Shown here: positions 7,554-49,519 of the stretch, piece by piece
Numbering within the stretch: position 1 is the first letter of the stretch
How the letters are laid out: each line of letters opens with the position of its first letter
Origin: a virus
Length of the DNA: 64,000 bases
Reading direction: 5' to 3' (one strand)
IMG/VR virus record: IMGVR_UViG_3300036790_000219
Location: 56,058-120,057 of that record
Program-made: the position numbers and the translations under genes
The notes under the pieces: model-generated
The model's input: the letters and a program-made list of their open reading frames with translations, nothing else
What the model was told of the DNA's origin: nothing
The model's database searches: none

Positions 7554-8555
7554 ATGCCTAAGCACACGATCTACGGCCTCTACGATCCGAGCGATCGGAA
7601 AAAGGAGGTTCGCTATGTTGGAGCAACTAAGTTCACGCCTGAGCAACGTTTAACTGATCACATCTCCGGTGCAGAAGCCGCAGACACTTATAAGAAGAAG
7701 TGGATCAGAAAACTGCTCAGGCAGAACTTGGTTCCTGCCATCCTAGTTCTTGAAGTCACAACGACGAGACACTGGAAGAAGCGGGAGAAGTATTGGATCG
7801 CCTACCTTCGTTCTAAAGGTAGCCGCCTAACGAACTCAACGGAAGGCGGGGAGGGCCTGGTCAACCCAACGAAAAATGTTCGGGCCAGGATTGCCAAGAA
7901 GGTTTCTGAGCTTCTTATTGGAAACCAACGCGCTACAGGAATGAGTCACACAAAAGAAGCCTGTCTGGCTATTTCGAAGGGATTACGGGAATCCAAGAAG
8001 TTTCAGCGGTCCCAGCGAAAATGGCGAGGGAAGGCGCGTTATACTCCAACCGAGGAATCTAAGCTCAAAATCTCCTTGGCTAACTTGGGAAGACCCCGTC
8101 CGGATGTACGAGCTCTTGCTCTTCGCTTAAACAAACGCCGGAAAGGTTCGGTCTGGGTAACAGATGGAAAGAGCAATAAGCAGATTCTAAAGGGAACCCC
8201 AATTCCTAAGGGATTTGTTTGTGGTCGGCTTATGACTTGGCAAGAACCTGGTAAGGGGCCGACGAAAGGGCGACGGTACATAACTAATGGAGTTGAAAAC
8301 CAGATGATCGAAATTTCGGCTCCAATCCCCGAGGGCTTTAAGTTTGGACAAACACGTCATAATCCGCGTCGGGATACAAAGGTAGGTTTAAGAAAATTGA
8401 GTGAAACAGTACGGCAACTTAAACTAGGTTTTCGTTTAATCACTGATGGTGCGGTTCGCCGTCAGCTTCCAAGGGATCAGGTACTTCCAGCGGGTTGGGT
8501 GTTTGTTAAAAAGAACACTCTAAAGTCGCTTACAACCTCGGTCTCGTTAGATTGA
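7554..8555 (+). CDS. GIY-YIG homing endonuclease with NUMOD3-like and W-TDG repeats
   Basis: A 333-residue protein. The N-terminal ~95 residues form a GIY-YIG nuclease (IYGLYDPSD, VRYVGATK, Arg in EQRLTDH). NUMOD3-like helices follow (GMSHTKEACLAISKGLRES; TEESKLKISLANLGRPRP). The C-terminal half holds three copies of a ~30-residue module beginning VWVTDG, RYITNG and RLITDG (~199, 240, 293), each followed by a Pro-Gly-Phe/Trp turn, probably for DNA contact. It is a free-standing selfish gene between the capsid gene and the next structural gene. Its start is masked by a hairpin. The target site is unknown. Confidence 0.85.
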   Translation: MPKHTIYGLYDPSDRKKEVRYVGATKFTPEQRLTDHISGAEAADTYKKKWIRKLLRQNLVPAILVLEVTTTRHWKKREKYWIAYLRSKGSRLTNSTEGGEGLVNPTKNVRARIAKKVSELLIGNQRATGMSHTKEACLAISKGLRESKKFQRSQRKWRGKARYTPTEESKLKISLANLGRPRPDVRALALRLNKRRKGSVWVTDGKSNKQILKGTPIPKGFVCGRLMTWQEPGKGPTKGRRYITNGVENQMIEISAPIPEGFKFGQTRHNPRRDTKVGLRKLSETVRQLKLGFRLITDGAVRRQLPRDQVLPAGWVFVKKNTLKSLTTSVSLD

Positions 8556-12561: not shown

Positions 12562-13314
12562 TTGAGACATTATTTATACGTATTTACTTTTCCGAATGAA
12601 AAGCAATACTTTGGACACGCACGTGATGTGAAACGGCGATGGGTAGAGCATAAGAAAGCTGCCAAGCGCAATCGACAAACACCAATTTACCGTGCAATTC
12701 GTAAATACGGTTGGGGCGCCATTAAAAAGCAAGTCGTGGTTGTTGGCCCAGAAGACTATATTGTTGGAATGGAGGCTACCGCAATAGAAAAATTTAATAC
12801 CCTAGTTCCTCAGGGGTACAATCTCTCACCTGGGGGGTTTTCTGCACCAACTTCAAACCCCGAAGTAGCTGCCAAACTTAGCCGTTATATGATTGAGCGC
12901 TGGAAAGACCCCAAATACCGAGCGTATATTGAGGAGTGCTCTAGAAATCGAGAACCCACCAACGAAAGCCGTGACAAAATTTCTGTGGCTGCGCGTTTAA
13001 GATGGCAGAATCCAAATTACCGAGACAACTTTATCAAAAACCGAACTGGTAAGGGGCGTGGGCGAGTTTGGATAACTAATGGCAAGGCACGACGGTTAGT
13101 TCTTCCGGATGCGGAGCTACCTTTTGGTTGGGTTGTTGGAATGGGCCGAATTTATACGGCCCAGGAACTAAGAGCACGAAGTAACTCTATGCTTGGGCAC
13201 TTACGGATTACTAATGGGGCAGAAGAGCGGTGTATATCCCCAGAGACGCCTCTTCCTATAGGTTGGCATTACGGTCGTAAGTTGGGTATAGATTATAGTG
13301 GGAAATTCAAATGA
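12562..13314 (+). CDS. GIY-YIG homing endonuclease with W-DP-YR and ITNG repeats
   Basis: A 250-residue protein from TTG 12562. The N-terminus has a GIY-YIG fold variant (YLYVFTFP, KQYFGHARDVKRRWVEHK). Two helical repeats RWKDPKYRAY and RWQNPNYRDN (~112, ~147) match repeats in the HNH gene at 14820. Two ITNG modules follow (VWITNGKARRL; LRITNGAEERC), each ending in a Gly-Trp turn as in the endonuclease at 7554. It lies between neck genes and overlaps the following ATG, so it depends on operon transcription. Confidence 0.8.
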   Translation: MRHYLYVFTFPNEKQYFGHARDVKRRWVEHKKAAKRNRQTPIYRAIRKYGWGAIKKQVVVVGPEDYIVGMEATAIEKFNTLVPQGYNLSPGGFSAPTSNPEVAAKLSRYMIERWKDPKYRAYIEECSRNREPTNESRDKISVAARLRWQNPNYRDNFIKNRTGKGRGRVWITNGKARRLVLPDAELPFGWVVGMGRIYTAQELRARSNSMLGHLRITNGAEERCISPETPLPIGWHYGRKLGIDYSGKFK

Positions 13315-14819: not shown

Positions 14820-15590
14820 TTGTTGGGGCTAGCATTGCAAAACAACAAGTACCGTCGTTGGTATAATGAGCTCATAGCGAGAGCAAAGAACCGCCACTTA
14901 AGTTGTTATTTTGAAAGACACCATATAAAGCCTAAAGCTCTCGGCGGTGGAAATGAGAAGTCCAATATTGTAAAGTTGACTTACAGAGAGCACTTTCTAG
15001 CACATTGGCTGTTGACTAAGTGTACGCTTGGGGTGGCCCAACAAAAGATGTTCGCTGCATTAGCATATATGACTAGGGCAACGAGTGGCCGCACAGTTTC
15101 GAGTTGGCAGTTTTCTTTGGCACGCACTGCACGAGTGTTAGTAATAGAGGCAATTTTAAAGGAGTGTTGGAAGAACCCTTCCTACCGTGAACTTCAGTTT
15201 ACACAGCAAAGTTTGTCAATGAAGAATCGATGGAAGGACGATGATTGGCGTGTGTATATGGAGAGACTTATTTCAGCGAAAAACCGGGCGTTATGGCAGG
15301 ATCCTAGTTACCGGGAGAAGCAAACTAAAACTCGGCGTAGTACTGCCTTTCGGGAAGGTCAACGTAAAAAGGCAAAAGCAGCGTGGGCTAAAGCTGAATG
15401 TCGCAAGAAGTATTTAGCTACGAATAGTTTACGTACTCTATTGAAGGACCCTATGTTTGTCAGAAAAAGGATAAGAAAGTTTAGAGCAGCGATAAAAGTT
15501 TTGTGGCAGGATCCTATTTGGCGGGCTAACACTTTGGCGGCGCAGGCTGCTGGGCGACTAAAGAAAAAAGCTCTCCAAAATGGTCAATAA
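14820..15590 (+). CDS. HNH homing endonuclease with W-DP-YR repeats
   Basis: A 256-residue protein from TTG 14820. The HNH core is CYFERHHIKPKALGGGNEKSNIVKL followed by REHFLAHWLL (~30-66). The rest is very basic and made of repeats centred on WKNPSYR, WKDDDWR, WQDPSYR and WQDPIWR, the same module as in the GIY-YIG protein at 12562. Its 3' end overlaps the next structural gene by 11 bases. Codon use is more A-rich than the neighbours, fitting recent acquisition. The target is unknown. Confidence 0.85.
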   Translation: MLGLALQNNKYRRWYNELIARAKNRHLSCYFERHHIKPKALGGGNEKSNIVKLTYREHFLAHWLLTKCTLGVAQQKMFAALAYMTRATSGRTVSSWQFSLARTARVLVIEAILKECWKNPSYRELQFTQQSLSMKNRWKDDDWRVYMERLISAKNRALWQDPSYREKQTKTRRSTAFREGQRKKAKAAWAKAECRKKYLATNSLRTLLKDPMFVRKRIRKFRAAIKVLWQDPIWRANTLAAQAAGRLKKKALQNGQ

Positions 15591-43290: not shown

Positions 43291-43627
43291 GTTTAGCCTT
43301 CCACTCGTTAACGTATTTGAGCCAGTCTTTGGGCGCGATGCAGAATGAGCGATTATCGGATGCCACCACATAGACCATGGCTTTCGGATTCCGAAACAAC
43401 CTTCCATCCTTTTTGTACACTGCCGCTCGCATGGCGTCCAGAAGGTCGTTGTAGCGGTGAGAGTGTACGGTACCCGGCCCGATCACAAGTGTTACTCGGA
43501 AGTAGTCGGCCTTGGCAAAGATATCGGCGTCCCACTCGCTGCTCTTCTTGAACGGGATATCGGGGAAGGCTGGGACACGTAACTCCGTGTTTTGTCTAAG
43601 TGGGCGTGTGAGGCGTTGCTTTGTCAT
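43274..43627 (-). CDS. Hypothetical early protein
   Basis: A 117-residue protein starting MTKQRLTRPLRQNTELRVPAF. Mixed alpha/beta; the segment YFRVTLVIGPGTVHSHRYNDLLDAM has no clear match. It overlaps the next gene by 17 bases and the previous one by four, which supports coupling. Confidence 0.55.
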   Translation of the reverse strand: MTKQRLTRPLRQNTELRVPAFPDIPFKKSSEWDADIFAKADYFRVTLVIGPGTVHSHRYNDLLDAMRAAVYKKDGRLFRNPKAMVYVVASDNRSFCIAPKDWLKYVNEWKAKHAQRV

Positions 43628-44121
43628 CCTTGACTCCTTTCTCTAGCCCGGTTATCCAGCATATCCTGCGCAACTTGTATAGCTAGGGGATTCATCCTTT
43701 CGTGGGCTTCCTTCTCCCACGGGCGGTCGCGATATGGGATGGTGGACTGGTTAAGTGGGGTGTTATAGAAGAGCGTGATTGGTCTCTTCGCTTTGTCAAC
43801 ACCACATCCTAGCACCCCTATCAAATGTTGCTTGACGTGGACCATTTCGTGGCAGAATGCTTGAAGCATCGTTGCACGATCCTGACGGGTGATCTGCATT
43901 TCAAACTCGCGGATAGGCTTACCGCCAAAAATCCTTCTTTTGTTTTGGGAAGTGCCGGCCGGACCAAGACGGCCATTCTCCCCTGGATTGTGTCCCGCGT
44001 AGAGTTCGACGGTGGCCTTATACTCTGATATGCCCAACCGTTTCGTCAGCACCGGAAAGGCTTCCGCGAAGAAGCGGCGCTCCGGTGCGGTAAAGCATTT
44101 ATTGGAAATGCGTAATTTCAT
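43624..44121 (-). CDS. HExxH metallopeptidase-like (SprT-type) protein
   Basis: A 165-residue protein. FCHEMVHVKQH (His91, Glu92, His95) is a zinc HExxH motif; a possible third ligand lies in PWEKEAHERM. The overall helical pattern fits SprT-like or similar small metalloproteases. Such phage proteins could process host or phage proteins early. No signal peptide, so cytoplasmic. Confidence 0.7.
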   Translation of the reverse strand: MKLRISNKCFTAPERRFFAEAFPVLTKRLGISEYKATVELYAGHNPGENGRLGPAGTSQNKRRIFGGKPIREFEMQITRQDRATMLQAFCHEMVHVKQHLIGVLGCGVDKAKRPITLFYNTPLNQSTIPYRDRPWEKEAHERMNPLAIQVAQDMLDNRARERSQG

Positions 44122-44336: not shown

Positions 44337-44909
44337 TCACCTTCCTCCGTGCCATTCGAGTGTTCCGTTGTTGGGTTGGACGGCTCGCGTTCCCCTTACG
44401 GAAGCGGCGGAGTTTAACCCATAATCACACAAGTATACCCATGCTTCGACTTCTTGCCCATTTGGGAGCAAAAAGTTGTGTAGCTCCCGATGGTAGAAAT
44501 TTGGGTGTCCTTCCAGCCCGTCACAAGCGGCGAACTCTTGAGCATTTACTCGGAAGAGTTCACCTTTGACAGCATGCCCAGTTCCAGCCTTTGCCAGAAA
44601 CGGAAAGCCACCAGAAGTCATCTGATAGTTTGTATCAGCAGAAACGGCTTCGCCTAGGAACGTAGCTTGGCTAAGCAATCGTGAGTAATTGCCGTAGCCC
44701 CGTTTTAGCGTGCCGTAAACGAAAATGGTATACTCTGGGGTATCTTGAACTAGCCAGATACGGGTAAGATGTGGGTACGCCCACCTGCCAGAGAACTTCA
44801 AGCAAGGCTTCCCTTTGGACGCATAGCAATAGGGGCACTCCACCCGGTAGTATCTGGATGTGTTACCCTTGAGGTTGTAGCGCAATGCATAAGTGTTTGA
44901 GCCTGACAT
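44337..44909 (-). CDS. Zinc finger fused to gamma-glutamylcyclotransferase-like domain
   Basis: A 190-residue protein. The N-terminal ~50 residues hold CPYC (25-28), Cys36 and His47, a phage-type zinc finger. From ~62 comes a GGCT/AIG2 domain: FVYGTLKRGYGN (65-71) and DGLEGHPNFYHR with Glu133 in the position of the catalytic acid. Such domains remove gamma-glutamyl groups as 5-oxoproline. With the amidoligase at 48410 and the second GGCT at 47408 it may form one pathway. Confidence 0.75.
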   Translation of the reverse strand: MSGSNTYALRYNLKGNTSRYYRVECPYCYASKGKPCLKFSGRWAYPHLTRIWLVQDTPEYTIFVYGTLKRGYGNYSRLLSQATFLGEAVSADTNYQMTSGGFPFLAKAGTGHAVKGELFRVNAQEFAACDGLEGHPNFYHRELHNFLLPNGQEVEAWVYLCDYGLNSAASVRGTRAVQPNNGTLEWHGGR

Positions 44910-45407
44910 TTATTCCCCCGGTAGTTGATAGTAATTGTGGAGCGCACAAATTTCCTCTGCAAGTTTGCGAACTTGATTCTGATCCCGCCCTATCCCAAGA
45001 TTACGTGGGATAATACAAATGGGTTGATGCTTCTCATCAAAGACAACCGCGCCTTCTGCACGGCCATCTATATAGCGATCTTCAAAAGACCATTGCGGCT
45101 TTTGATCAAACCTAAATGCTGAAATTCCCACACAAGCTTCGGCGGCTTCCGTTAATGACAGCGTATCAGACGTGAGATAGCGAATGTTAGGCCCTTCCTC
45201 CAAAGGAAAGTAGAAGGGGCCTCGTGTAGCTAGATAATCTACTGCGTCACTAATCTGGAGCACTTCCAATATTGACTCGATGCAAGCGGCTTTGGTTTTA
45301 TTGTCAATACCAAATATGAGAACTTGAAACCCCGTTTCACATTTTTCTATAGACAACACTTTTGCCCCGTCTGGGAGCTCTTCACGTTTAAGTGGTCGTT
45401 CCAGCAT
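44910..45407 (-). CDS. Hypothetical protein beside zinc-GGCT gene
   Basis: A 165-residue protein (MLERPLKREELPDGAKVLSIEK...). The beta-rich middle (YFPLEEGPNIRYLTSDTL; DRYIDGRAEGAVVF) has no recognised family. Starts with GAGGA upstream and ends at the start of the zinc-GGCT gene, so it is its operon partner. Confidence 0.55.
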   Translation of the reverse strand: MLERPLKREELPDGAKVLSIEKCETGFQVLIFGIDNKTKAACIESILEVLQISDAVDYLATRGPFYFPLEEGPNIRYLTSDTLSLTEAAEACVGISAFRFDQKPQWSFEDRYIDGRAEGAVVFDEKHQPICIIPRNLGIGRDQNQVRKLAEEICALHNYYQLPGE

Positions 45408-45419
45408 TTTGATCCTCCT

Positions 45420-45803
45420 CTATTCGTAGTGTGGACGTGTAGAAGGAAAGTGCGGGTTTGGGTACCCTGCACAAACATGGGCAGCGTACCGTCCCGTAGA
45501 TAACACACTTGAGAGGGGTCGCCGGTCCTTGTTGACCCCTTCCCGCATAAGAGAGTTAACCTGTTCGGCAAAATCGTATGCCTCATCCCGGTCATGAAAA
45601 ATACGTGGGCAATTGAATGGTGCATCTGGGTTGATTTGCTTCAACTCAAGAGCATCATTCACCCGTCGTCCGGCTGTGTAGTACCAGCCGCCCTCCTCTG
45701 CACCACCGTAGACCCGGTCCTCAAGGTAAAGTGCGACGGTATAGAATGCCACTTCGGGCGTTGCTTGATGGGCCTGCGCTTCGTCCAAATCTTCAATCTG
45801 CAT
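45420..45803 (-). CDS. Hypothetical early protein
   Basis: A 127-residue protein from ATG 45803 (MQIEDLDEAQAHQATPE...), with GGAGGGG upstream; a longer frame to 45974 lacks such a site. Segments VALYLEDRVYGGAEEGGWYY and FHDRDEAYDFAEQVNSLM suggest a small alpha/beta fold. No known family. Confidence 0.55.
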   Translation of the reverse strand: MQIEDLDEAQAHQATPEVAFYTVALYLEDRVYGGAEEGGWYYTAGRRVNDALELKQINPDAPFNCPRIFHDRDEAYDFAEQVNSLMREGVNKDRRPLSSVLSTGRYAAHVCAGYPNPHFPSTRPHYE

Positions 45804-45811
45804 ATCCCCTC

Positions 45812-46000
45812 CTACCATTGTAAACCTAAGCCCAACCAAATCCCACCGACCGTGAAGACTGTACCTGCCAGTAAGACCACGGGTATCATGTCGAACGCAA
45901 GTTGTTTCCAAGTCATTTTGGTAAGTCTCCTTAAAACTAAATGGATGAAAGCGAGCTCGCCGAAAATACCCCATGATTCAATTATATGAAACGTAGTCAT
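45812..46000 (-). CDS. Small single-TM protein
   Basis: A 62-residue frame with a C-terminal membrane helix (MIPVVLLAGTVFTVGGIWLGLGL). ATG 46000 (GAGGA upstream) keeps the tight 9-base spacing to the upstream gene; an internal ATG at 45916 with AAGGAG would give a 34-residue protein. The start is unsettled. Confidence 0.5.
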   Translation of the reverse strand: MTTFHIIESWGIFGELAFIHLVLRRLTKMTWKQLAFDMIPVVLLAGTVFTVGGIWLGLGLQW

Positions 46001-46009
46001 GAGAAATCC

Positions 46010-46363
46010 TCAGATGTTGCCGACCAACTCCGGGTCCTGTTTGGTCTCTCGGGTTTTGGTAGTGAGTTTCAGCGTGCCGTCCATAGAGGCGGCAGCCCGA
46101 ATGTCCTTCCAGTTTAACCGCACCTTACGTTTGCCCACTGCAGGCCCGATGCAGCGTCCGTTGGGGTACATTACCCCAAACATTTCACCGTGCTGAAGGA
46201 AGACAATCATAGAAGTACTACCTCCACCATCGGTTATAGTTTGATAGACGTGCCAGCCAGCGGCTATGTACTCCGCTGCCGCTTTGGCTTGTTTAGGGTG
46301 ACGAGAATTCAACGCGGCTGCGTTGAGCTCCTCTTGGGTTATATAGTGTCTACGTTTGTGCAT
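46010..46363 (-). CDS. Hypothetical early protein
   Basis: A 117-residue protein (MHKRRHYITQEELNAAAL...). Helical N-terminus, beta middle (HGEMFGVMYPNGRCIGP) and a basic end. No recognised motif. GGAGAAG precedes the ATG. Confidence 0.55.
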   Translation of the reverse strand: MHKRRHYITQEELNAAALNSRHPKQAKAAAEYIAAGWHVYQTITDGGGSTSMIVFLQHGEMFGVMYPNGRCIGPAVGKRKVRLNWKDIRAAASMDGTLKLTTKTRETKQDPELVGNI

Positions 46364-46434
46364 GCTTCTTCTCCTTTCGTAAGGCGTACGCCCCTGTGGG
46401 CCAGTGTGAAATACCGACCCACAGAAGCTTACGT

Positions 46435-46791
46435 CTATTCCCCTTTTACAAGGTGGTAGGTCCCATCGCTGTCCTTGCGGATGCGACCGGCGCTAAGAAG
46501 CTTCGAGAGATTGGGGCCAACGCTCTCTTTCGAGAAGCCTCGGTCCACAAAAACTTCATCGAAGTCCCCGGCAAGCATAGGAGAATTACGGAGTGAAGCA
46601 AGAACGAGCTCCGGTCCGGTAATACCCTTGTCGTGCTTACCATTAACGTACCGGCTTTTGGGGGTCTTCTCTCCCGTAGTCGGCACAACCCCGCTTAACG
46701 CAACCCGCCGCTCCCCGGCAATCAAAGCCAAGAACCAAGCGAGATTCTTCTCGTCGATGCGAAGTTTGACGTCGAAGGAAGTCAAGGTCAC
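46435..46791 (-). CDS. Winged-helix-like protein, paralogue of 41636 gene
   Basis: A 118-residue protein with the same two-part design as the gene at 41636: a beta N-terminus (SFDVKLRIDEKNLAWFLAL) and a C-terminal GFSKESVGPNLSKLLSAGRIRK plus final beta hairpin (DGTYHLV). The linker differs (PTTGEKTPKSRYVNG). Probably DNA binding. Located about 4.5 kb from its relative, indicating an old duplication within the early arm. Confidence 0.65.
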   Translation of the reverse strand: MTLTSFDVKLRIDEKNLAWFLALIAGERRVALSGVVPTTGEKTPKSRYVNGKHDKGITGPELVLASLRNSPMLAGDFDEVFVDRGFSKESVGPNLSKLLSAGRIRKDSDGTYHLVKGE

Positions 46792-46795
46792 CCCC

Positions 46796-47095
46796 TCAGT
46801 TCATGAGGGAAGTGAGCTTCGACTTCACTTCGTCGTAGGTCTCCCGAACCGGACGACCCGCGCCGTTGGTGTAAGTAATGCGGGTACCGGGCTTGCCGCC
46901 GTGACGCGGGTAGTATTCCCGAATCTCATCGACATAAACGGTGACTGGGAAAGTCGCCGAATCCGGTGTGGTGAACGGCGTGGGTGTAGTAGGCTGCTCC
47001 AGGTCATTCGTAGTTTGAGCAGCAACTGCGGCGTTAGCGTACGCAGTACGCTCCGCATCGGTATCGATCGCAGTGAGTTCAATAGAAGCACGCAT
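46796..47095 (-). CDS. Hypothetical early protein
   Basis: A 99-residue protein from ATG 47095 (MRASIELTAIDTDAERTAY...), with AAGGAAA upstream. It has a Thr/Pro-rich linker (EQPTTPTPFTTPDS) and a beta C-terminus (FPVTVYVDEIREYYPRHGGKP). No family is recognised. Confidence 0.55.
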   Translation of the reverse strand: MRASIELTAIDTDAERTAYANAAVAAQTTNDLEQPTTPTPFTTPDSATFPVTVYVDEIREYYPRHGGKPGTRITYTNGAGRPVRETYDEVKSKLTSLMN

Positions 47096-47294
47096 TGGTA
47101 GGTTTCCTTCTTTTGCCCGCAATTTGGGGATTAAGCCGACCGGGGCGGGCGTCACCAGTTGGCTATTCTGTGCACAAAACTGTGCTCCATTACACCGTCA
47201 CGAGAACGGTGCAACAGGCCACAGTTATTTCTTCAAGGATTCTGTCCAATAAAACCTGCTCGGACAAGAATCTGTTTGACCTGAGTTGCGCTCG

Positions 47295-47411
47295 TCATTG
47301 CAACAACATCCATTCGAACAGCTGCTCAATGCTGTACGCAGCTGCCATTATAACGGCCCAAGCAACTACTGTCAGCATGGCCTTTTCTGCCTTGCCTATT
47401 GGCATCATCAT
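47295..47411 (-). CDS. Tiny membrane peptide
   Basis: A 38-residue frame (MMMPIGKAEKAMLTVV...IEQLFEWMLLQ) with one hydrophobic helix. GGGAGGA lies upstream of ATG 47411. It overlaps the start of the GGCT-like gene end by four bases (its ATG lies inside that gene's stop region). Likely a real but easily missed gene. Confidence 0.5.
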   Translation of the reverse strand: MMMPIGKAEKAMLTVVAWAVIMAAAYSIEQLFEWMLLQ

Positions 47412-47983
47412 TGTAGCGGTCCTCCCTTCGGTGGCACGGCCTGCGCGGCGCGGCGGATATCTAGCCGCCGTAACGCCACGCTTTCCGGCATCTTGACTAG
47501 CTGCTTGTGTAACTGGGTATCTTTTTGTCGCTCACGGCGGGCTTGGGTTTCGACATCAGGACGCTTCTCGTCCCACGACTGTTTGATCGCCGTGTTCAGG
47601 AATTTCTCGTCGAGTTCGAAGTCCTTATAGCCGCGCCGGATGATGTCAGCGTAATGCTGTGACGGTGGCATGATACCATCACTACTACGCATCAAGTACA
47701 TGAGTGTGTTACGCGGTCGCCCACAGTATTCGATAACGACGCCGGTCTCTTTGTAGTAGCCCGCCCCTTCGTACCGGTCTAACGCTGCTTCGTCGGCTTG
47801 ATTGATTGCCCAAAGCCCGCAAGGAACCTTATCCCCAGGGGAGTACTCAACGTCTGCCGCGCCACGGAAGACCAGCTTGGCATCCGTCAGGTAAAACTTG
47901 CCCAGCGGGCGCGCGGTAGAACACCGCTGACGCATCTGGCGCTTGTTCAAGTTTGAGCCATAACTGATGTATAGTTTTGTCAT
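47408..47983 (-). CDS. Gamma-glutamylcyclotransferase-like protein
   Basis: A 191-residue protein from ATG 47983 (GGGGAAGG upstream). GGCT features are YISYGSNLNKRQM (8-12), VPCGLWAINQADEAALDRYEG with Glu72 as putative catalytic acid, and a beta core. The last ~70 residues are a basic helical extension (KRPDVETQARRERQKDTQL). The family forms 5-oxoproline from gamma-glutamyl amines or related amides. Direct operon partner of the amidoligase at 48410. Confidence 0.75.
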   Translation of the reverse strand: MTKLYISYGSNLNKRQMRQRCSTARPLGKFYLTDAKLVFRGAADVEYSPGDKVPCGLWAINQADEAALDRYEGAGYYKETGVVIEYCGRPRNTLMYLMRSSDGIMPPSQHYADIIRRGYKDFELDEKFLNTAIKQSWDEKRPDVETQARRERQKDTQLHKQLVKMPESVALRRLDIRRAAQAVPPKGGPLQ

Positions 47984-48183
47984 TATCCTTCCCCCTTTCG
48001 TGTGTTCCAATGCTCCGTAGCGGCTCTCTCATTCGCAAATGATGATGTGGCACAGTCCACATCAAATAGCGGTCCCTCTGCGCCGCAGCTAGTACACCGG
48101 ATCTTCACATCAAAGAAGGAGTGTTCGCCACGAGCCACCCTTGCTTCGCTCGCACAGAATGGGCAATTTTTTAGCATTGTCAT
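47983..48183 (-). CDS. Lar-like restriction-alleviation zinc finger
   Basis: A 66-residue protein. CPFC (7-10), RCTSCG and the ending EHWNTRKG match Lar-like zinc-finger proteins, first known from Rac prophage where they ease type I restriction. A paralogue lies at 52703. Overlaps the GGCT gene by one base, so it belongs to the amidoligase operon. Confidence 0.75.
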   Translation of the reverse strand: MTMLKNCPFCASEARVARGEHSFFDVKIRCTSCGAEGPLFDVDCATSSFANERAATEHWNTRKGEG

Positions 48184-48413
48184 TCAGTTACCTCGCTCAA
48201 GAGACCGGTCCGTAACAACGCGGCTACAAACTCGCTCTCAGAATCTGTTGGGATATAGACACCGGAGGTTTGCCGAACACGCCGCGCCATCTGTTTCATA
48301 AAGGCTTCGGTGTTTGGCTCCGGATCGCGTGACGCGGTGCGAAGCTGACGAATCACATCGCGTGAGTTATCAGCTTCGAATACCGCGCCGTCGTCTGTCT
48401 TGTAGTGTTTCAT
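48180..48413 (-). CDS. Small hypothetical early protein
   Basis: A 77-residue protein (MKHYKTDDGAVFEADNSRDVI...). Helical and charged; no motif recognised. It overlaps both neighbours by four bases, so is coupled between the amidoligase and the Lar-like gene. Confidence 0.6.
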   Translation of the reverse strand: MKHYKTDDGAVFEADNSRDVIRQLRTASRDPEPNTEAFMKQMARRVRQTSGVYIPTDSESEFVAALLRTGLLSEVTE

Positions 48414-49519
48414 GGTACCACCGTACTCACCACATCAACTGTGGGTGGCGAGCCAATCTCACCGTTAGAACCCACCTGCGCTGTTCCTAACGCAACTGTC
48501 CGTTGCTGCCAGAAGGCCTTATCCATATCGTCGAGTTGTAACTTCTCGTATAACTCCACGAGGGACATGGCAACGTGCGAGGGCGCGGTAGAGCCACCGG
48601 AAGAGGCAGTGGGGTCAAGCTTAAACACTTCCCGTCCGTACCGGTGCCCCATCACGACTTCGGCCGCTCCGGCGCGGCGCAAATGTCCTTGAATGTAAGG
48701 TTGAGAGCGAATACCAAGGGCCAAGCGAATATCTTCGGAAGTAGCGCCTTCCTCACGGCTTAGTAACCGGTAGATCACTCGCCGTGCCCGGCCACTTTGC
48801 CAGTACGCTCGCTCACCGATACCGTGAGTACCACCAGCAATAGGCTGGCCCGCTTCACGCACCGCCGTTTCAACCATCTTCGAGCAGAAGATCACCCACT
48901 TGATAATCTTCTGTGCATCAACGGTCCCCGAGTGGTGTCGGAATTCAACCGTGCCGTGTTTCCAATACGCGGTAAAGTTGAGCTTGACGTAGCGGTTGTG
49001 TTCCCCACCAACAGCGCTGGCGATCTCTGTCACCGTTGTAGCTTGGTTGAGCCTCACCATGTCAGCACGGGTTGCATTCGAACCGCAGTACTGATTCGCA
49101 TTGCCGCGCCGTGACGGAGGTAGCAGTTGGTCAATGAGGCACTCGTGTTGAACATAAAGTTCAGCAAGCTTCTTCAACGCCGCCACTGACATGCGGTTCC
49201 GCGCTCCGATGTGGATGTGAAGACCACAGGAACGGTTGACCACCGCGCCGAGTTGTGTCAACACCGCGCCAACCTTCTCAATCTGCTCGAAGTTGGCTTC
49301 GCTTAGCGGCGGTGACACAAGTTCCATGCCCACACCGCCCGGTACGTGCATTGACCGTAACGAACCGTCGGTAACGATCTTCCACCGTTCCCGCTCAGCG
49401 CGGTGTGTGTACCCCGCGTTGAGGCACGACACCCCGGCCGCTTCGATCGCCGCCGCCACGCCAACATACGTTGAACCGGCAGGCGCGATGAACTCAATTT
49501 CTACCCCAAAATCAAGCAT
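48410..49519 (-). CDS. Amidoligase-family enzyme
   Basis: A 369-residue protein. Family motifs are FGVEIEF (4-10, metal/ATP-binding Glu residues), VTDGSL (49-54), MELVSP (65-70), CGLHIHIG (98-105) and LNFTAYWKHGTVEFRHHSG. This set fits the Amidoligase_2 family of the glutamine-synthetase/COOH-NH2 ligase superfamily, which forms amide bonds using ATP. The C-terminal ~120 residues are an extra domain with a winged-helix look (YRLLSREEGATSEDIRLAL). ATG 49519 has GGGGAG upstream. Downstream partners are Lar-like and GGCT-like genes. Confidence 0.8.
   Translation of the reverse strand: MLDFGVEIEFIAPAGSTYVGVAAAIEAAGVSCLNAGYTHRAERERWKIVTDGSLRSMHVPGGVGMELVSPPLSEANFEQIEKVGAVLTQLGAVVNRSCGLHIHIGARNRMSVAALKKLAELYVQHECLIDQLLPPSRRGNANQYCGSNATRADMVRLNQATTVTEIASAVGGEHNRYVKLNFTAYWKHGTVEFRHHSGTVDAQKIIKWVIFCSKMVETAVREAGQPIAGGTHGIGERAYWQSGRARRVIYRLLSREEGATSEDIRLALGIRSQPYIQGHLRRAGAAEVVMGHRYGREVFKLDPTASSGGSTAPSHVAMSLVELYEKLQLDDMDKAFWQQRTVALGTAQVGSNGEIGSPPTVDVVSTVVP

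Follow-up and report, generated by a model that had tools for sequence, protein, structure and literature searches.

The stretch of DNA analysed here (the window) comprises 64,000 nucleotides, bases 56058-120057 of the 120,057-base viral record IMGVR_UViG_3300036790_000219. On its minus strand lies a gene train that includes an Amidoligase_2 enzyme and two predicted gamma-glutamylcyclotransferases (Table 1). Pfam and PHROG matches place the amidoligase, the GGCT-like gene and the zinc finger-cyclotransferase fusion at the coordinates given for them in an earlier reading of this DNA (the original prediction), and the Lar-like gene and the HExxH protein, which that reading had also assigned to the train, are both present in it.

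One gene between the amidoligase and the GGCT-like gene had been missed. It encodes a protein of 77 amino acids and its start overlaps the amidoligase stop (ATGA). The junction between this gene and the Lar gene is likewise ATGA, and that between the Lar and GGCT-like genes is TAATG; on account of these overlaps the amidoligase, the 77-residue protein, the Lar-like protein and the GGCT-like enzyme are, in that order, translationally coupled as a single unit. About 2.5 kb beyond the GGCT-like gene lies the second cyclotransferase, on the same strand and with five genes in between. Elsewhere in the window, three open reading frames that read like GIY-YIG/HNH homing endonucleases (7554-8555, 12562-13314 and 14820-15590) are scattered among structural genes.

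Table 1. Features of the gene train (window coordinates) and the matches on which their assignments rest
Feature	Position	Strand	Evidence
Amidoligase_2 enzyme, GS/GCS-fold, predicted ATP-dependent carboxylate-amine ligase	48410-49519	-	PF12224 (E 9.5e-38, 130.9 bits, cut-off 22); PHROG 2443; AF2 model (mean pLDDT 84); Foldseek
Conserved 77-aa partner protein outside known families	48180-48413	-	Locus profile counts; AF2 model (pLDDT 93)
Lar-like restriction-alleviation zinc protein	47983-48183	-	PF14354 (E 1.9e-11)
GGCT-like gamma-glutamylcyclotransferase with C-terminal basic tail, Glu72 predicted catalytic	47408-47983	-	PF06094 (GGACT; E 2.3e-6); PHROG 2520 (E 6e-26); human GGCT 2pn7 (E 4.6e-5)
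Zinc finger (Phage_zn_bind_8) + GGACT/AIG2-like cyclotransferase fusion, Glu133 predicted catalytic	44337-44909	-	PF06094 (GGACT; E 3e-23); PF24623 (E 1.6e-5); human GGACT 2kl2/3jub
HExxH protein (HEMVH)	43624-44121	same train	PHROG 10499, family of unknown function

Predicted enzymes of the train

Family, predicted fold and active-site motifs together support the assignment of the amidoligase to the GS/GCS superfamily of ligases. The motifs G-x-E-x-E, E-x-V-S-P, G-x-H-x-H and T-x-E-F-R are intact and, in an alignment of 34 relatives, invariant or nearly so, which bears out the expectation that the Glu and His residues of an amidoligase would be in place. Although a PDB search by sequence gave no match, the structural model aligned in Foldseek with YbdK (1r8g, E 2.4e-5), GshF (3ln7), glutamine synthetase (8oon) and plant glutamate-cysteine ligase (2gwc), and also with GmaS, so that structure prediction likewise upheld the proposed fold. 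The TM-scores are low (0.33), as expected of a distant relative with the GS fold. Most of them make gamma-glutamyl amides, and the window amidoligase may do the same. It shares with YbdK, glutamate-cysteine ligase and glutamine synthetase the predicted fold and the carboxylate-amine ligase motifs, but differs from them in sequence (about 11% identity by fold match) and in carrying an extra tail. The ligase domain spans residues 1 to about 220 and is followed by a winged-helix-like C-terminal region (about 243-301). This region, which the original prediction did not mention, has a weak HTH_20 match, resembles the ArsR-like structure 6j05 in a local fold alignment (E 0.26) and is common in sequence to a subset of the relatives. 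Another amidoligase (L023:3749-5248) is extended at its N-terminus by what look like pentapeptide repeats.

Enzymes of the GGCT and GGACT families open gamma-glutamyl-amide bonds to yield 5-oxoproline, and their substrates are small gamma-glutamyl compounds. Glu72 of the GGCT-like protein aligns with Glu98 of human GGCT, and Glu133 of the fusion protein with Glu82 of human GGACT, the human residues being the catalytic ones; both phage glutamates had been singled out beforehand. A YGSN loop begins at residue 8 of the former protein and a YGTL loop at residue 65 of the latter. Judged by these alignments the two cyclotransferases are members of different subfamilies, GGCT-like and GGACT-like, in keeping with the earlier view that they are unlike each other. 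Despite the shared loops and catalytic Glu, the phage proteins depart from the human enzymes, the first by its basic tail and the second by its zinc finger.

The zinc finger fusion was considered as a conserved feature and set aside, since it was not seen in the GGACT-like genes of L014 and L017, which are among the nearest relatives. Two GGCT-like proteins (L017:11363-12334 and L025:10973-11731) have C-terminal CxxC pairs, at the opposite end from the zinc finger of the window protein. In phage C75C1, a GGCT domain is fused to an N-terminal domain with the look of a class II glutamine amidotransferase (L011:6693-7589), about 0.85 kb downstream of that phage's amidoligase.

The 77-residue protein matches no family in Pfam or PHROG. 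Its model is that of a well-folded, compact alpha/beta protein, to which no PDB fold could be matched (best E 0.97) and which, among viral models, resembles only proteins without a functional name. Conservation across its relatives, too weak for the alignment to serve as a collection query, is concentrated at M39, R45 and F62, which look structural; the C-termini vary, and the alignment shows neither a conserved residue at the C-terminus nor a conserved Lys, Cys or carrier Ser.

Genomic company of the amidoligases

Among the 80 viral amidoligase loci of a first scan, 60 contain a GGCT gene, compared with none of 94 control viral loci. In 59 of the 60 it lies on the amidoligase strand, at a median of 214 nt downstream; no GGCT was found in the examined flank of the other 20. 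The pairing of amidoligase and GGCT in phages is thus not a matter of chance, and the co-occurrence in related phages on which the original prediction depended is confirmed. The small protein, detected by profile, is present in 65 of the same 80 loci. A second scan, aimed at GAT-type (glutamine amidotransferase) amidoligases and overlapping in part with the first, brought the viral loci to 158, and the small protein stands near the amidoligase in 100 of these against 0 of the 94 controls. Its start mostly falls between -13 and +50 nt from the amidoligase stop (median +10).

The nearest relatives of the window locus (L014, L016 and L017) all retain the amidoligase, the small protein and both cyclotransferases. 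The order in L016 is GGACT, one open reading frame, amidoligase, small protein and GGCT, and L014 has the same matches; in L017 the order is amidoligase, small protein, GGCT and GGACT. Within this group only the window has the Lar gene and the zinc finger. Searching with the window Lar sequence recovered no Lar-like gene in any of the 80 amidoligase loci, and the Lar-like protein lies outside the conserved module.

Bacterial genomes give a different picture of the module. In 28 amidoligase loci with flanks of up to 5 kb (from Hymenobacter, Pontibacter, Chryseobacterium, Capnocytophaga, Desulfovibrio, Brasilonema and others), at least one of which (L291) looks like a prophage, the small protein is found in 24, GGCT in one and GAT in none. 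The small protein therefore accompanies the amidoligase more steadily than the cyclotransferases do: the two are the core, to which cyclotransferases are an addition common in phages, and the GGCTs look like phage-side accessories. This qualifies the proposal that ligase and cyclotransferases drive a single modification in opposite directions. The predicted folds, active sites and type of chemistry on which it drew are supported, but action on the same compound is called into question by the single GGCT among the bacterial loci and the 20 of 80 viral loci without one, and the tie of the cyclotransferases to the ligase reaction is a loose one.

Amidoligase and GGCT genes have been found together before. 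Annotations place both in LUZ24-like phages (among them UFV-P2, tf and PaP3), along with a GATase and an ATP-grasp protein (PMC3890496), in Arthrobacter Laroyevirus, in the order AIG2, amidoligase and glutamine amidotransferase (PMC5513430), and in prophages of C. clostridioforme (PMC11318856). The phage module of amidoligase and GGCT is thus already predicted and annotated, and the small protein is the added element. Like the LUZ24-like phages, the window has its Amidoligase_2 and AIG2/GGCT genes in one train; unlike them, its record is without GATase_6 (PF13522; a control matched in 14 of 14 genomes), holds the 77-residue protein in the GAT position and has two cyclotransferases of different subfamilies. 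In Laroyevirus the amidoligase also adjoins GGCT, but GAT takes the place of the small protein after the amidoligase and GGCT is upstream. Searches of the record for ATP-grasp, with a single Vibrio-phage seed, and for COOH-NH2_lig (PF14395), whose control likewise matched nowhere, gave no match, and no PADLOC anti-phage defence model matched at E 0.01.

In related phage modules, then, a glutamine amidotransferase holds the place that the 77-residue protein occupies here. Across the 158 viral loci, the small protein occurs alone in 98, the GAT alone in 38, both together in two and neither in 20; after clustering at 60%, which removes loci duplicated between the two scans, the corresponding counts are 44, 15, 2 and 17 (Fisher p about 1e-5). 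Repeated independent exchange of the two genes was considered and rejected: in a tree of the amidoligases, the GAT-bearing members fall mostly in one clade with two outliers, requiring three to four changes. The exclusion is accordingly a division into subtypes brought about by few events, and GAT-coupled and small-protein-coupled amidoligases suggest two different amine sources.

Possible function of the amidoligase and its small partner

The phage amidoligase literature that we found has predicted amide modifications since 2009 and reports no substrate. Nor does it mention the small protein, the literature covered here being that other than Iyer et al. (2009), where a mention may occur. With a compact, well-folded partner usually encoded directly after it, the ligase becomes part of a defined two-protein unit, which offers a concrete handle on the phage amidoligases.

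Our best model, to which we give roughly even chances, is a ligase complex of amidoligase and small protein with optional cyclotransferases that cut glutamyl amides. The amidoligase and its co-translated partner would constitute a two-part ATP-dependent ligase, linking an amine to a carboxylate, probably that of a glutamyl side chain. The GGCT-like and GGACT-like enzymes would cut gamma-glutamyl-amino-acid or gamma-glutamyl-amine bonds, releasing 5-oxoproline, and in so doing would either trim the products of the ligase or clear competing gamma-glutamyl compounds of the host. The likeliest guess for the target is a component of the host envelope, or a host protein, that is modified during infection. 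More broadly, and with the balance of probability tipped somewhat against us, we propose that one amidoligase subfamily has in the 77-residue protein a near-constant, hitherto undescribed partner or substrate, and that this subfamily, in phages and prophages from a wide range of bacterial phyla, performs protein-assisted or protein-directed amide conjugation with detachable gamma-glutamyl erasers.

Should the small protein itself be the substrate, the amidoligase might load an amine or amino acid onto it or link it to one, in the manner of a carrier or of Pup, and the cyclotransferases might remove its gamma-glutamyl groups. The constant adjacency and translational coupling of the ligase and the protein of about 77 residues would suit such an arrangement. 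There is precedent in PafA, the Pup ligase, which is a GS-fold enzyme, and by analogy in BtrG, a GGCT-fold enzyme of butirosin synthesis that takes off a gamma-glutamyl protecting group. Against this stand the want of any conserved residue at the C-terminus, or of a conserved Lys, Cys or carrier Ser, and a model that is compact rather than that of a disordered tag, and we consider the substrate role unlikely. Two specific versions of it were rejected, namely Pup-like tagging (the C-termini vary, with no conserved C-terminal Glu or Gln) and a carrier-protein role (no conserved Ser or Cys). With no invariant attachment residue or conserved C-terminus, and with conserved positions that look structural, the small protein is more probably a partner or adaptor subunit than the item attached.

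A purely metabolic role, in which glutamate, glutathione or polyamine pools are rerouted and the GGCTs return 5-oxoproline or glutamate, would accord with the small gamma-glutamyl compounds that are the usual substrates of GGCT and GGACT. It has a counterpart in the ZRK32 phage, where amidoligase and AIG2/GGCT are annotated and a role in nitrogen metabolism is argued (PMC10945688). We nevertheless think it improbable: a conserved non-enzymatic partner and fusions resembling nucleic-acid-binding domains point to a targeted reaction, and no further glutathione or glutamate genes were found nearby. Superinfection exclusion through modification of the host cell wall, which Iyer et al. (2009) proposed for the phiEco32 amidoligase according to the papers that cite them (PMC11318856, PMC10580990), has the merit of having been put forward for relatives and would fit an amidoligase-small protein pair carried by a prophage (L291). 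No peptidoglycan gene was found in the module, and for the window locus such a function seems to us a minor prospect.

A second amidoligase in a hypermodification cluster

The record contains a second, divergent amidoligase outside the window (L003:11119-12051, which are also the record bases). Its neighbours are a radical SAM/SPASM protein, an FAD oxidoreductase, an amino acid:DNA transferase (ADDT), a 5-hmdU kinase (HMUDK) and a thymidylate-synthase-like protein. Although it scores below the Pfam cut-off, the protein can be aligned with the amidoligase of the window across the E, H and EFRH motifs, and its conserved motifs are G-A-E-x-E, G-G-E and V-E-F-R. Phage Simon (L013) and seven of 14 IMG/VR loci (L094-L107, ADDT present) likewise have a member of this family in a cluster of this kind, and no GGCT was found near the loci of the family. 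These associations suggest an amide-forming step in thymidine hypermodification.

With a thymidine hypermodification cluster in the same record, the window system could conceivably gamma-glutamylate amine-bearing thymidines of the virus's own DNA, the winged-helix-like tail of the amidoligase and the putative DNA-binding zinc finger of the fusion protein serving to bind it. Yet that cluster carries an amidoligase of its own, separate and different; a 5-hmdU kinase gene lies within 10 kb in only one of the 80 amidoligase loci, on which count a general link of the module to thymidine hypermodification was rejected; and the hosts of amidoligase phages and of 5-hmdU-kinase phages barely overlap. 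We regard this use of the window system as very improbable. Inside the hypermodification cluster of phage Simon lies an open reading frame (L013:8860-9381) that, by eye, resembles a low-molecular-weight protein tyrosine phosphatase (VCHGNINRS).
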